A stretch of 32,604 bases of DNA. It comes from a virus. The position numbers and the translations under genes were made by a program. Shown here piece after piece: positions 1 through 31,858 of the stretch. The DNA lies in IMG/VR virus record IMGVR_UViG_3300025853_000356, positions 1 through 32,604 of that record; one strand, given 5' to 3'. The notes under the pieces were generated by a model. The model ran no database searches, had not been told where the DNA came from, and saw nothing but the letters and a program-made list of their open reading frames with translations. Each line of letters starts with the position of its first letter. Positions within the stretch are counted from its first letter, which is position 1.

Positions 1-605
1 ATGCAGCGAAGTTCACGCTTCTTCCTTCTTAAAGCGAACCGATAAACATGCTTTGGAGGGCATACGACAATTTCTACCTTTTTAGGCGCGAGGTGTTCGA
101 TCAGTTTTGAGCCACTCATGCCCCATCGGTCATAGGCTGTTTTGCTGTGAAGCCATTCCCCATCGACCACTATACGTCTAGTTCCGTGACCTTTTTCTGT
201 GCCCAAATATTCCCAGTTAGAAGCTTGGTAAATGGTCCCAACATGGCCAAAGCGGGGGTCTGCAAAACTGATAACCGCATCCAGGTCGGTGTTTTTTCTG
301 AGCCACCGCAGCGACCATCCGATGAACCTGCTTTCGCTGTTTTTGCCAGCGTTGTCCAAAAGGGCGACCCGACTGAGTTCTAAATCGCAGCCGTAAGCTC
401 TTCCAGTGTTAGGCAAACTTGGCTTCCTAAACAACATCACGCCAACCATTTGATCGTTAAACCACGCCGTAAACCAATGCTTCCCTGGAGGGCATGCGCC
501 TGAATAGTGATTTTCGCGAACAAACTTTCTGAGCTTTGGAACCTCAAAAGCGGAAGCTTTTTCAAAGGTCAGTTCGCGAGCCTGGATCGAGTTGTCCGCA
601 ACCAT
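1..605 (-). CDS. Mom-like DNA adenine modification protein (partial, 3' end off window)
   Basis: An open frame runs from the ATG at 605 to the left edge without a stop (201 codons visible). The product resembles the phage Mu Mom family, GNAT-fold enzymes that convert adenine in phage DNA to a carbamoylmethyl form and so block host restriction. Visible family-like features are HYSG at 33-36, the AWFNDQMVGVMLF strand pair at 47-59, LSRVAL at 78-83, SFADPRFGHVGTIYQASNW at 113-131, and a late KHVYRF at 185-190. Mu Mom is a little over 230 residues, so roughly 20-35 residues are probably missing. The start overlaps the upstream stop as TGATG, indicating translational coupling. The gene looks more AT-rich than its neighbours, hinting at separate acquisition. 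The family call rests on motif recognition; the activity is inferred. Confidence 0.82.
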   Translation of the reverse strand, partial: MVADNSIQARELTFEKASAFEVPKLRKFVRENHYSGACPPGKHWFTAWFNDQMVGVMLFRKPSLPNTGRAYGCDLELSRVALLDNAGKNSESRFIGWSLRWLRKNTDLDAVISFADPRFGHVGTIYQASNWEYLGTEKGHGTRRIVVDGEWLHSKTAYDRWGMSGSKLIEHLAPKKVEIVVCPPKHVYRFALRRKKRELRC

Positions 606-841
606 CAATCCATGCTCCCGAATTGGGTCACGTTATGCTCGTGGTGATCGACATCAGGACCACGACGAACGACCCGAGAACGAAGGCCAAGAGGATCCGG
701 TCGATGAGTCGGTTTGGATCCATTGATCGAGCGCTCCATCTCAGCCAGGAGCCCTAGGGTCTCAGCTACGACCCTGGTCGTGAAGCCATTTCGGTTGAGC
801 TCCCGGAGGAGCACCAGGTTCTTGCGGATCTCAGGGATCAT
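605..841 (-). CDS. hypothetical protein, 78 aa, coupled to the Mom-like gene
   Basis: This small protein has no family I recognise. The first 40 residues form a probable amphipathic helix rich in Leu, Glu and Arg (VLLRELNRNG, VAETLGLLAEMERS). The second half is Arg-, Pro- and His-rich and looks disordered. The start has a strong AGGAGG five bases upstream that overlaps the stop of the preceding gene. Its own stop overlaps the ATG of the Mom-like gene (TGATG), which argues for real translation. In Mu, Mom is encoded with a partner gene, com, a zinc-finger translational activator. This protein has no Cys motif and should not be called Com. A second frame inside its 3' half encodes a hydrophobic peptide, so the region may be dual-coding, or the tail may reflect a frameshift. 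Confidence 0.6.
   Translation of the reverse strand: MIPEIRKNLVLLRELNRNGFTTRVVAETLGLLAEMERSINGSKPTHRPDPLGLRSRVVRRGPDVDHHEHNVTQFGSMD
628..723 (-). CDS. possible nested 31-aa single-span membrane peptide
   Basis: In a different frame inside the 78-aa gene, an ATG at 723 opens a 31-codon frame. It begins MDPNRLIDRILLAFVLGS and continues with a Val- and Leu-rich stretch, then polar residues and TGA. Residues 8-26 would form one transmembrane helix. A weak GGAG lies about ten bases upstream. The frame is short and overlaps a better-supported gene, so it may be fortuitous. Alternatively, a frameshift could join the helical N-terminus of the 78-aa protein to this membrane segment. Confidence 0.3.
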   Translation of the reverse strand: MDPNRLIDRILLAFVLGSFVVVLMSITTSIT

Positions 842-26865: not shown

Positions 26866-29360
26866 TGCTGTCTCCCGAACCTCTGGGCCAATTCCATCAG
26901 CTTCAGCTCGGTGTTCTGCTGGAGCCGGTCCTCGGCCATGCGAATCTTATCGTCGGCCATCTGCTTCTGGAGATCCATGCGCTGGCGCTGGATCTCGGCC
27001 TCCAGGAGCTTCTCCTGGACCCGGCGCTGCTCCTCGGCCTGGAACTCGCTTTGATCCTGCTGGAGCTCTGCCGCGCGCAGCGCGAGCTCCTGCTGGCGGA
27101 TCTGCACCAGGGGATCATCGGCGCTGCCCTGGCCAATCGATTCCATGAGCTCCGCCGTCAGCTGGGCCAGGATCGGCGAAGCCAGCTGGTCGATCAGCAT
27201 CTGCACCTGCTGCTGGAACATCTGAACCTGCTCCGGCGGCAGCTGCTGCGCGAGCATGGGCTGCTGCTGGATCTGCTGCATCACCTCAGGCGGAAGCTGC
27301 TGCTGGGCCATCTGGGCCGCCTGGAACTGCAGGTGCTGGAGCATGTGGCTGATGATCATCGCCTGCAGCTGCGGGTTTTCCTTGACAACCTGGGTCAGGA
27401 ACAGCTGCCGGTGGGCGTCGACGTGGGCAAGGTGGTTCTGGGGCTCAAAGGCCTGCGCAGGCTGACCGAGGAGCAGCCCGGAGTTCTCCAGGCCCGCATC
27501 CACCGGCATGGGCGGCTGAGGCTCCTGAGGCGGCTGCAGGAGGGTGTCGATGTCATCGACCCCCAGGGCCGCGTACATGCGCCGGTAGGCCTCATAGATC
27601 CCGCGAGGGCCATGGATCTCAGGATTAGACTGGACCAGGGTCATGAGCTCCTGGGCCATGGTGATGCGCTGGCTCTGGGAGAAGATGTTCGGGTCCGAGA
27701 CGGGGATCACATCGACCCGGCCATCGAAGTCCTGGTTCAAGATCACCTGCTGGCCGGAGCCCGTTTGGTACGGGTACTCCGGCGGCAGGTATTCGTTGAA
27801 CACCCTGGCCATCAGCTGGAACTCGATCTTCTGGCTGTAGTGCAGGCGCTTGTGGATCGCGCTCATGACCTTCGTGCCGCGCTCCAGGAGCGCCACGGTC
27901 GTGCCCACGGGCATCTGCTGGTTCATGTCCCCGACGTTCATGTCGGCGATCGAGGCAAAACGCTTGCCGCTCTCCACGAGCAGCCCGAGCAGCTGCATGA
28001 GGACGTTCGACGGCTCCTTGATCGGGAGCGGGATCAGGTTCTCCCGGAGGCTGCCGCCGGTGGTGTCGATGTCCCGGAACTCACCAGGCTGAAGCGGGTT
28101 GTCCTCGTCCCGGATCCGCATCCCACGAGCCTTGAAGCCGGCGGGCAGGTTGGCCAGGGTGCCGGCGTCGATCAGCTGGCGCAGGATCGAGGTCGCGGCC
28201 TTCGACAGGCCCCCGATCATGTGGCTCAGGCCCAGGCCGTAGAAGCCCAGGCCGGGGAGGAACTTGAACTGCACGAAGTAATTGATCTTGCGCTTCGCCG
28301 GGTCCTGCTCGCGCCAGTTGCGGCGGATGGCAAGGACCTGCTGCGAGTCCTCGTCGATGGTGACGATATAGGGCAGCTTCAGCCCCGTAGGCTCGCCATC
28401 CTCGCCGACGTCTTCAAAGCCAGGCAGGTCTAGGATCGTGTGGACCTCGTAGACCGTGCGGTCGCGCATCTCCTGGTAGGACGGGGACTGGCCCTCGATC
28501 TCGTCGATCTGCTCCTCGATCTCGTCCCGGGAGTAGTGGCCGCTGCCGCCCTTGAGCTCGATGTCGGCATAGAACCCGTTCAGCTGCAGCTTCCGAATCT
28601 CGTTCTTGCTCATGCTGAGGACGTGGGTCACGCGCTCGGCCGAGAACATGTCCGGGGCCTCGTAGGGCACGATCAGGTCCTCGGGGGCGATGAACTTGCT
28701 CACCGCGCGATTGAGCACCGTGTCGTAATACACCTTCTTGAAGGCGGACCCGGCCAGAGGCAGGTAGAACAAGAGCATGTCGAGCTCGGGGTCGAACTCC
28801 TCCATCACATTCATGATGTAGAAGTTCATGAAGTTGCCGACGCGCTCGGCCTGCTGCTCGACCTCAACCGTGCGCATGCCGACGATCTCGGTCTTCACCG
28901 GCCCCTTGGCCGGCAGGAGCTCCTTGTAGGCCTGGGCCTGGAACTGGGTCACGGCCTCGGCCAGGATCGGGTGGATCACCCCAGAGGCGCCCTCAAAGGG
29001 CTGGGAGCGGGTGTCGTCGAAGCGCATGCCCAGGTACTTCAGGCCGTCGACGTAGGTCTTCTCCCAGTCCGAGCGGGAGTCCTTGTCGGCCTTGATCGAG
29101 GACAGGACGTCCCCGGCCAGGGTCGAGAGATCCCCTGCATCAATGTAGTCGACCAGGTTCTCGTCGTGGCCGGCCTGGGGCATCTCCGGCATCGCATCGA
29201 TCTCGTCGTCGATGAGGATCCCTTCCTCCGCCACCAGGACCATGGCCGCGTCGCGCACCTGGTCCTCCCGGGACGGCTCAGGGAAGACCTCCACCTGATT
29301 GCCCGTGACCATGATGTCCGGATCGTCCTGGGTGCCGAGCTCGCGCTTTTCGATAGCCAT
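26862..29360 (-). CDS. portal protein, 832 aa
   Basis: The portal is the twelve-subunit ring at one capsid vertex through which DNA enters and leaves. The core (about 80-620) resembles portals of P22-like marine phages: SDWEKTYVDGLKYLGMRFDD, QPFEGASGVIHPILAEAVTQ, FLPGLGFYGLGLSHMIGG, and PVGTTVALLERGTKVMSAIH. Residues 640-832 are a Gln/Met-rich helical extension (MAQQQLPPEVMQQIQQQ, ELALRAAELQQDQSEFQAEE), comparable to the C-terminal barrel of P22 gp1. The length exceeds P22 gp1 (725 residues), mostly through this tail and an acidic N-terminus. The ATG overlaps the terminase stop (TGATG). Confidence 0.85.
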   Translation of the reverse strand: MAIEKRELGTQDDPDIMVTGNQVEVFPEPSREDQVRDAAMVLVAEEGILIDDEIDAMPEMPQAGHDENLVDYIDAGDLSTLAGDVLSSIKADKDSRSDWEKTYVDGLKYLGMRFDDTRSQPFEGASGVIHPILAEAVTQFQAQAYKELLPAKGPVKTEIVGMRTVEVEQQAERVGNFMNFYIMNVMEEFDPELDMLLFYLPLAGSAFKKVYYDTVLNRAVSKFIAPEDLIVPYEAPDMFSAERVTHVLSMSKNEIRKLQLNGFYADIELKGGSGHYSRDEIEEQIDEIEGQSPSYQEMRDRTVYEVHTILDLPGFEDVGEDGEPTGLKLPYIVTIDEDSQQVLAIRRNWREQDPAKRKINYFVQFKFLPGLGFYGLGLSHMIGGLSKAATSILRQLIDAGTLANLPAGFKARGMRIRDEDNPLQPGEFRDIDTTGGSLRENLIPLPIKEPSNVLMQLLGLLVESGKRFASIADMNVGDMNQQMPVGTTVALLERGTKVMSAIHKRLHYSQKIEFQLMARVFNEYLPPEYPYQTGSGQQVILNQDFDGRVDVIPVSDPNIFSQSQRITMAQELMTLVQSNPEIHGPRGIYEAYRRMYAALGVDDIDTLLQPPQEPQPPMPVDAGLENSGLLLGQPAQAFEPQNHLAHVDAHRQLFLTQVVKENPQLQAMIISHMLQHLQFQAAQMAQQQLPPEVMQQIQQQPMLAQQLPPEQVQMFQQQVQMLIDQLASPILAQLTAELMESIGQGSADDPLVQIRQQELALRAAELQQDQSEFQAEEQRRVQEKLLEAEIQRQRMDLQKQMADDKIRMAEDRLQQNTELKLMELAQRFGRQQ

Positions 29361-31858
29361 CAGTAATAAACCACCCTGTCTCGCCGTAGCGGCCGCATCT
29401 CTTCTTGATAGTCTTCGTCAAGGGTAACAAATCCGCCCTGGCGAAACCTCATCAAGGCCATGGTCGCCGAGTCGCAGAAGTCATCGTGGTCCCCGTAGGG
29501 GAACGAGGCCATCTCCTCGATGACCTCCTCGGCGAAGGTCTGCTCCGGTGCCCACACCATACCCGACTCAAAGATCGGGGCAACGCTGTTCATCCTGGCG
29601 ATCTTATCCTGCCCCCGGCTCGGCGTATACGCGGTCACCGGGATACCCATGCGCCGGAGCTCGTGGGTCAGGGGCGTGCCCGAGGCCTTGGCCTCGATGA
29701 GCACGCAGTCCGGCTCCCAGTATCGGTACTCCTCCATGGCCGCACGCTTGAGCTCCGGAAAGTCTACCCGCAGGCGCTTGGCGTCGAGGAGGATGATCTG
29801 CTCGGGCCCGTCATTTTCGGGCTGGAAGATCGCCCAGGTGGTGATCGCCGAGTAGTCGGCGGTCTCCTTCTTGCTGTAGGCCGTATCGTAGGATTGAATG
29901 ACGTAGCTGTAGGCCGGGACGTGGTCCGGCTCCCAGCGCCGCCACCACTCGCGCTTGACGATCGAGCCCTCCTCGGCGGTCGGGTTCTGCATCCACTGCG
30001 CGTTCCACTTCGCGATGGGCAGCGAGGCCTTGACCGAGAGAAGTTCTTCCTTCTTCCAGTATTCAGGCCAGAGCGGCTCCTCGCTCTCGGGCATAATGGC
30101 CGGGAACTCGACCACCTCCCACTGGTCCGCGTAGTCGTCGCCCTGCTTTTTCAGCACGCGCCCCACGAGATCCTTGGTCGACCACCGGGTCATGACGATC
30201 ACGATGATCCCGCCGGGCTGGAGACGCTGCCGGGGGCCGGAGGTGTACCACTCGTAGATGCTGTCCAGGGCCGTCGCCGAGAGCGCGTCCTGCTCCGATA
30301 CGGGGTCGTCAATCACCAGCAGGTCAGCACCGCGGCCGGTGATCGCACCGCCCACGCCCGAGTAGAAGGCCTCGCCACCGCCGTTGGTGGTCCAGCGGCC
30401 GGCGCTCTTGTTGTCGCCCTCAAGCTGCAGGCTCGGGAAGACCTCCTGGAACTCATCGCTGTCGATGATGTTCCGCACCCGGCGGCCGAACCGCACCGCG
30501 AGCTCTGCGGTGTGCGTCGCCTGGATGATCTTCAGGTTCGGGCGGCGCCCCATCATCCACGCCGGGAAGAAGGTCGAGGCAAATTCGGACTTGCTGTTCA
30601 TAGTGCAGACCAGACCCTTGCCGGCGAGGAATAGATCATCCTCGCGCTCAACCTGTACGCATTGCACGTTGCCGCGGCGTTCTAGCTTTTCGATGCGGAT
30701 AAACCGCCCATAAACAGTCGCCTTAGCGCGCTCGCGCTTGCGGGGTAACAGGCAAAGATCCGGAGCGTAGAAAGACACCTTGTAGGTCGGCCCATAGGAT
30801 CGATCGCCAATCTTGGCCTCAGAAATTTGCACCGTATTTCTGACGCCCAGGGACCAGAGGAGCTCCCTGAACTGGTCGATCAGCGCCCGGTCCTTCTGGG
30901 CAAAGAAGCACTGCCCGGCCTTCGACACATTCCCGTCAGAGTCCATCAGGCCGCGCACAAGATCCTTTCGCTGCTCAATGCTGGCGACCATGTAATCTGC
31001 CGGGACGTGCTTGTTCCCAAGCACGCCAATATCCCGCAGCTTCACTTTCAAGTTCAGGATGCCAAAAGAGAAGCGCGTAGACTGGTCGGTGGTCTCGTAG
31101 CCGCGGCGAGCAAACTCTGCTCGATAGAAGCCTGCGTCGTCATCATGCGCGGTGATAATGGCTTGATGCTTTGAACCGTCGCCCAGCCAAAGCCCGAGCA
31201 CATAAGGATCCACCAGGAGATCACGCTCAGGGAGCTCCACGGCCTCTGTGTCGGGAATCATGGCGGCCCTAGGGTTCGCCACTGCTCCAGGGCGGATCTC
31301 CAGCGTGCCGCTGCTGTGGCGGCGCAAGAAGGACCCCTGATCGCGCTGCCAGAGCTCTTCTGTCGTGTACTCCTTGAACTTCTTGTGCTTGCGGTCCAGG
31401 CGCACCCACCAGCGATGCTTTGCGTCAGTGATGACCGAGGCGCCGTCGTTGGTCGTCACGCGGTAGAGCTCAACGTCTTCGTAGACCGGAGATTTGCCCG
31501 TGACGCGAGTGGGCTGGCCGTCTGGTCCAAAGACATAGTCCCCGGTTTCGACCTCGGCCATGGTCTTCCAGCCATCGGTGGTCAGCACCGGGGTATCAGT
31601 CTCAAGGCAATGCCTCGGTGGCAAACAGACAATCAGGCGCTTCAGCTTGCCGGCGGCGATGCGGTCGAACTTCTCGGCGATGATCCGGTGGTGGCGGCCC
31701 TCGATGAAGTCAGGCCACTGGGTCTTCACGAAGGACAGGAAATTCTTCTGCGCGCTCTCCTGCTTCTCAAGCGCGTCGTAGCGCTTGAGCAGGGCCATGG
31801 CCTCCGCCTTTTCACTGTCGGAGAGTAGGTCGAAATCCTTGATCGCTAGGCTAGACAT
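29360..31858 (-). CDS. terL: terminase large subunit containing an intein, 832 aa precursor
   Basis: TerL is the packaging ATPase and nuclease. The extein residues are 1-83 and 422-832 (494 after splicing, a usual TerL length). Joining them gives CLPPRH+SKSEF, the Walker A region. Walker B is LLVIDDPV (513-520), and an ATPase coupling motif lies near MTRWS (556-560). The C-terminal RNase H-like nuclease shows SYDTAYSKKETADYSAITT (656-674, Asp658), VLIEAKASG (719-727, Glu722) and GDHDDFCDSATMAL (789-802). Residues 84-421 are the intein, described separately. The unspliced form cannot have a working P-loop, so packaging depends on protein splicing. The gene starts inside the lysozyme 3' end (13-base overlap), placing lysis and packaging genes in one transcript. 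No small terminase subunit is seen in this window. Confidence 0.88.
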   Translation of the reverse strand: MSSLAIKDFDLLSDSEKAEAMALLKRYDALEKQESAQKNFLSFVKTQWPDFIEGRHHRIIAEKFDRIAAGKLKRLIVCLPPRHCLETDTPVLTTDGWKTMAEVETGDYVFGPDGQPTRVTGKSPVYEDVELYRVTTNDGASVITDAKHRWWVRLDRKHKKFKEYTTEELWQRDQGSFLRRHSSGTLEIRPGAVANPRAAMIPDTEAVELPERDLLVDPYVLGLWLGDGSKHQAIITAHDDDAGFYRAEFARRGYETTDQSTRFSFGILNLKVKLRDIGVLGNKHVPADYMVASIEQRKDLVRGLMDSDGNVSKAGQCFFAQKDRALIDQFRELLWSLGVRNTVQISEAKIGDRSYGPTYKVSFYAPDLCLLPRKRERAKATVYGRFIRIEKLERRGNVQCVQVEREDDLFLAGKGLVCTMNSKSEFASTFFPAWMMGRRPNLKIIQATHTAELAVRFGRRVRNIIDSDEFQEVFPSLQLEGDNKSAGRWTTNGGGEAFYSGVGGAITGRGADLLVIDDPVSEQDALSATALDSIYEWYTSGPRQRLQPGGIIVIVMTRWSTKDLVGRVLKKQGDDYADQWEVVEFPAIMPESEEPLWPEYWKKEELLSVKASLPIAKWNAQWMQNPTAEEGSIVKREWWRRWEPDHVPAYSYVIQSYDTAYSKKETADYSAITTWAIFQPENDGPEQIILLDAKRLRVDFPELKRAAMEEYRYWEPDCVLIEAKASGTPLTHELRRMGIPVTAYTPSRGQDKIARMNSVAPIFESGMVWAPEQTFAEEVIEEMASFPYGDHDDFCDSATMALMRFRQGGFVTLDEDYQEEMRPLRRDRVVYY
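30596..31609 (-). mobile_element. LAGLIDADG-type intein in the terminase P-loop, 338 aa
   Basis: The in-frame insertion starts with Cys (residue 84 of the precursor: CLETDTPVLTTDGWKTMAEV) and ends LFLAGKGLVCTMN before Ser+1. Splicing blocks are visible: the N-block with Cys1, a TxxH B-block (TDAKHRW, 144-150), an F-block (EREDDLFLAGKGLV), and terminal Asn421. The homing endonuclease domain has two DOD motifs, YVLGLWLGDGSK (219-230) and LVRGLMDSDGNV (300-311). The penultimate residue, usually His, is Met, which in other inteins can slow or alter the Asn cyclisation step. Insertion exactly in the Walker A loop is a typical conserved-site target. Confidence 0.9.

Follow-up and report, generated by a model that had tools for sequence, protein, structure and literature searches.

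A virus genome fragment carries, within the P-loop of its large terminase subunit (TerL), what we consider with a probability of roughly 0.7 to be a mobile LAGLIDADG intein of the class 3 family, which splices with Arg66 in place of the missing penultimate His and spreads into empty alleles. The window, that is, the whole stretch of DNA analysed, comprises 32,604 nucleotides (IMG/VR record IMGVR_UViG_3300025853_000356). Inteins in the TerL P-loop and inteins lacking the penultimate His are already known; new here are the apparently separate insertion register PPRH/[ST]KSE (the slash marks the insertion point), an active site that mixes Cys1 with the WCT triad, and the paired change of a non-His residue at G6 with Arg at B11.

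An in-frame intein in the P-loop of TerL

The interrupted gene and its parts are arranged as follows:

29360..31858 (-): terL gene, encoding an 832-aa precursor (494-aa extein plus 338-aa intein)
31610..31858 (-): N-extein, 83 aa, ending in VCLPPRH, as delimited by empty-site alleles
30596..31609 (-): intein, 338 aa, class 3 family with an additional Cys1, precursor residues 84-421
29360..30595 (-): C-extein, beginning with Ser+1-Lys-Ser (the remainder of Walker A) and containing Walker B (LLVIDDP) and the RNase H-like nuclease

The host protein has both the ATPase and the RNase H-like nuclease of a large terminase subunit, and matches Terminase_6C (Pfam), TIGR01630 (NCBIfam) and PHROG 38 (terminase large subunit). 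Its gene lies in an ordinary phage head module, with an endolysin upstream and the portal and major head genes downstream. At the edge of the window (3-608, minus strand), an open reading frame matches PHROG 1384, a Mom-like DNA modification protein.

The insert is in frame, and its removal restores the conserved host motif PPRHSKSEF, as expected of an intein. A preliminary description, made from the DNA letters without database searches, had placed it at exactly these coordinates, where 338 residues split LPPRH/SKSEF. The intein-free alleles that it proposed to look for are prevalent: among the best 80 TerL matches, all 79 other close relatives have an empty site, which reads PPRHSKSE in 61 and PPRHTKSE in 18. 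Because the intein splits the P-loop, the precursor should not bind ATP and an ATPase-competent TerL should need splicing, a point on which the preliminary description agrees with the argument made for other TerL inteins (Kelley et al., 2016; PMC5050341).

The mycobacteriophage inteins TerL1-a and TerL1-b likewise lie in the Walker A loop of TerL (Kelley et al., 2016; PMC5050341), but at different positions. TerL1-a is inserted between the Walker A Lys and Ser/Thr and TerL1-b, as read from Redno2, one residue later, whereas the window site, PPRH/SKS, is two residues upstream of site a and coincides with neither. The window site also has Ser or Thr where Gly is usual, and the Redno2 intein is only about 35% identical to the window intein. 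Inteins from several uncultured phages (L105/L287, L367/L117, L307/L447 and L368) share both the family and the insertion site of the window intein, and PPRH/[ST]KSE is apparently a populated, separate insertion register for TerL inteins in uncultured phages.

A class 3 signature with an additional Cys1

The residues that would take part in splicing include the following:

31607..31609 (-): Cys1 codon; position 1 is C, A, R, P or K among same-site relatives
31415..31417 (-): His65 (block B position 10), the invariant catalytic His in the family alignment
31412..31414 (-): Arg66 (block B position 11), proposed substitute for the absent penultimate His
31409..31411 (-): Trp67 (B12), W of the WCT triad
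30659..30661 (-): Cys317 (F4), C of the WCT triad, presumed first nucleophile
30602..30604 (-): Thr336 (G5), T of the WCT triad

Trp67, Cys317 and Thr336 make up the class 3 triad around His65 and, together with Asn338 and Ser+1, complete the set of class 3 residues. The triad is nearly invariant across the family (W in 261, C in 266 and T in 267 of 270 inteins), and the nearest inteins in cultured phages have the same Trp B12, Cys F4 and Thr G5 around the block B His, most of them beginning with Ala, Asp, Leu, Pro or another non-nucleophile. The second helper His, in block F, is absent from the window intein, which has Asp instead, and from many relatives. When the family profile was compared with solved structures, the class 3 DnaB inteins 6bs8 and 6rix came out on top (E about 1e-37), with 6riy also among the best PDB matches; these matches and the same-site kin without a position-1 nucleophile group the insert with class 3 inteins. 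An AlphaFold model (pLDDT 94.2) predicts an endonuclease inserted into a HINT domain; its nearest structural match is PI-SceI, followed by class 3 DnaB inteins. Msm DnaBi1 (6bs8) and Mch DnaB1 (6rix), the solved inteins nearest in sequence, have the WCT triad and the DxxH form of block B in common with the window intein, but differ in beginning with Ala1, in keeping the penultimate His and in having a linker in place of the endonuclease.

Strict class 3 inteins have no Cys or Ser at position 1, yet Cys1 is present in the window intein and in those of L002 and L105. Judged by its residues, the window intein is class 3-like with an extra Cys1 and, because the strict definition excludes Cys1, lies outside strict membership. 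The class 3 definition was reportedly widened by Tori and Perler in 2011. In the remaining same-site TerL inteins of uncultured phages, position 1 is occupied by Ala, Arg, Pro or Lys, and Cys is confined to the window, L002 and the sister pair L105/L287; because position 1 varies in this way, Cys1 is probably optional. Since the insert bears a class 3 signature, which the preliminary description had missed, Cys317, and not Cys1, probably acts as the first nucleophile. A class 1 mechanism, in which Cys1 would be the first nucleophile and Cys317 would merely assist, would fit the Cys1 of these few inteins, but we regard it as unlikely: the other same-site relatives retain the WCT triad with A, R, P or K at position 1, and block B reads DxxH, as in the class 3 DnaBi1, instead of TxxH.

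Met replaces the penultimate His

Two further residues define the C-terminal end of the intein:

30599..30601 (-): Met337 (G6), ATG codon, at a position usually occupied by His
30596..30598 (-): Asn338 (G7), presumed cyclising C-terminal Asn, from the family alignment

The junction reads V-C-T-M-N/S, in agreement with the Cys-Thr-Met-Asn end reported earlier, and the canonical penultimate His of block G is therefore absent. This His is found in 252 of 270 related inteins; the others have Met, Cys, Leu, Gly, Ala, Arg or Ser, with Met in 5 of the 270 rows. A diverged allele and further independent contigs rule out a sequencing error at the Met codon, raised at the outset as a possible objection. 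Compared position by position, ATG shares no base with either His codon. The diverged allele, on the independent contig L002, holds a same-site insert that also ends in CTMN, with ATG at the same place; its intein is 89% identical to that of the window in amino acids and 81% in nucleotides, as against 99.4% and 94% for the extein. Contigs L082-L084, from other metagenomes, carry copies of the intein that are 99-100% identical and retain the ATG. At about 4173-4185 of L084, shortly past the intein, 35 codons of TerL are duplicated in tandem and in frame compared with the window; the duplication is either an artefact of assembly or real.

The codon at this place is ATG in the window, L002, L117 and L367 lineages, CTT in L368, CTG in L307 and TTG in L447. 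This series suggests that the change may have run from His (CAY) through Leu (CTY) and Leu (CTG) to Met (ATG). A scan of prokaryotic genomes with the intein returned a sole match, of 27 residues, in Arthrobacter gandavensis (L086), and a profile search of that genome found nothing.

Arg at B11 accompanies the loss of His

The preliminary description took the missing His to mean that splicing may be slow or conditional. Precedents run counter to this reading. About 5% of functional inteins lack the penultimate His, and restoring it helps some and impairs others (PMC4031507). For example, a phage RDF intein with Gly at the penultimate position splices to completion and is slowed by the mutation G316H (PMC5050341), and the class 3 AceL NrdHF intein, also without the His, splices within minutes and is abolished by G145H (PMC7891396). 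In AceL NrdHF, Arg69 at B11 adjoins the C-terminal scissile carbonyl and assists splicing (PMC7891396); in Ssp DnaE, Arg B:11 has been proposed to assist Asn cyclisation (PMC4031507).

The window intein carries Arg at B11 as AceL NrdHF does (His65-Arg66-Trp67). The two also have in common the lack of His at G6 and F13, the Arg beside the B10 His and a phage-like source, although AceL NrdHF is split, lacks an endonuclease, and has Gly at G6, Met rather than Trp at B12, and Ala1. Ssp DnaE similarly combines the absent His with Arg B:11, but is a split class 1 intein of a host DnaE. At the PPRH/[ST]KSE site, B11 is Arg in 6 of 6 inteins without the His and in 0 of 27 with it, all 27 of which have Leu. 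The His-less G6 and Arg B11 of the window recur in the L367/L117, L307/L447 and L368 inteins (the L117 sequence does not cover B11), unlike L105, where G6 is His and B11 is Leu; the residues at position 1 and at G6 vary among same-site inteins.

A more general association between B11 and G6 was first noticed post hoc. In an initial set of 201 inteins, a charged B11 occurred in 9 of 10 units lacking the His, against 46 of 160 that have it (70% clusters; p=0.00018), and in a wider set in 12 of 14 against 58 of 206 (70% clustering; p=2.7e-5). With 50% clusters, the association was moderate for charged residues (p=0.012) and weak for Arg/Lys (p=0.1). Before a second scan, we committed to an expectation for relatives of L117 (Met) and L307 (Leu): newly found members lacking the His should carry a charged residue at B11, with Arg or Lys favoured. 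All three new full-length Met- or Leu-type inteins at this site, L367 (Met), L447 and L368 (both Leu), have Arg at B11; two new His-less inteins at other sites have Glu in one case and Leu in the other. B11 is Glu, Asp, Ala or Leu in several His-less inteins. A tree that unites the His-less inteins in one clade is compatible with the data (p-AU 0.35), and a single event may underlie the pairing at this site. If true, the pairing would provide a sequence rule for His-less inteins in place of presumed slowness. A separate class 3-type group (L113, L126, L199 and L379) has a penultimate Cys together with Asp or Glu at B11.

On the reading that we favour, the intein would be translated within TerL, and its HINT fold would harbour the endonuclease as an insertion. 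With His65 and Thr336 activating it, Cys317 would then most likely attack the His83-Cys1 bond by the class 3 route, after which the N-extein would be transferred to Ser+1, Asn338 would cyclise and an acyl shift would re-form PPRHSKS. Because B11 adjoins the C-terminal junction in a homologous class 3 structure, Arg66 could do the work of the penultimate His, and its loss need not slow splicing.

These precedents and the Arg66 pairing weaken slow splicing as the default reading, and bear on two related proposals about packaging. First, Asn cyclisation without the penultimate His could be slow or dependent on conditions, such that splicing times the onset of packaging, as the preliminary description had suggested. 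Met at G6 is rare (5/270 rows), the insert does interrupt Walker A, splicing of the class 3 Msm DnaBi1 is slow and is prevented by oxidation (PMC6195587), and the active-site cysteines C1 and C317, together with C335, could form disulfides. Yet nothing that we found would make a delay long or regulated, and the regulatory cysteine of DnaBi1 is replaced by Leu here (position 48). In addition, even the other Met lineage lacks Cys1 (L367 has Lys), and near relatives without any intein indicate that timing is not needed for packaging. Because class 3 inteins can be redox-sensitive (PMC6195587), a conditional splicing step is possible, but a timing role is improbable. Second, and somewhat less probable again, the mixed active site (Cys1 plus Cys317, with His replaced by Met and Arg66) could make excision depend on redox state or on a branched intermediate and delay ATPase-competent TerL until late infection, in which case a selfish element would double as a packaging timer. 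A competent selfish element seems more likely than a packaging timer.

Probable homing and purifying selection

The endonuclease inserted in the HINT domain is marked by two motifs:

31175..31201 (-): DOD motif 1, VLGLWLGDG, intein residues about 137-145
30932..30961 (-): DOD motif 2, LVRGLMDSDG, intein residues about 217-226

Both motifs, from which a homing endonuclease had been deduced earlier, are intact and keep their acidic residues: D144 and D223/D225 are conserved across the family, the insert matches Pfam LAGLIDADG_3, and the model matches PI-SceI and I-DmoI. We predict that the endonuclease is active and would carry the intein into empty PPRH[ST]KSE alleles. Among the mycobacteriophage TerL inteins, those tested, including TerL1-b, spliced readily, and TerL1-b and TerL1-c cut the DNA of an intein-free relative (PMC5050341).

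Between the window and L002, dS is 1.14 in the intein, compared with 0.31 in the N-extein, 0.28 in the C-extein, 0.22 in the portal gene and 0.14 in the lysozyme gene, so that the intein has diverged at synonymous sites about four times as much as its flanks. Because divergence jumps at the intein boundaries, as expected of a homing element selected to splice and cut, the pattern points to a separate acquisition or replacement of the intein. The dN/dS ratio for the same pair is 0.065 in the intein, 0.063 in its endonuclease part and 0.016 in the C-terminal splicing block, and the intein is under purifying selection. Selection, divergence and the empty sites of relatives would all fit a splicing-competent homing element.

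Inactive class 3 inteins are known (Arth_1007; PMC3196547), and the loss of His could instead mark a splicing defect in a decaying intein, tolerated via coinfection with intein-free phages. We consider decay very unlikely: these dN/dS values were obtained at dS >1, the catalytic residues are all intact, and TerL is essential, with an extein conserved between the window and L002. An internal start at the Met337 ATG, yielding a free C-terminal TerL fragment (MNSKSEF...), would suit the four ATG lineages and an AAGGG 13 nt upstream, but is extremely improbable, with poor spacing, no convincing ribosome-binding site seen, and CTG in L307 and TTG in L447 at the same place, and the CTT of L368 rules it out as a general feature.

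Other inserts in related TerL genes

Related TerL genes contain additional inserts. The TerL frames of L107, L112, L115 and L116 have a second insert downstream of the P-loop intein, with intein-like ends (...VM/C...HN/TRW), and some TerL precursors must therefore splice twice. In L117 (3-2270), beside the Met-type P-loop intein, a further insert starts in the nuclease active-site motif (GDHDDF/CFVQDT), and the contig ends within it. Finally, the related TerLs of L114, L118 and L124 are interrupted in the Walker B region (IDDPH/.../SEQ), rather than in the P-loop, by an intein of class 3 type.
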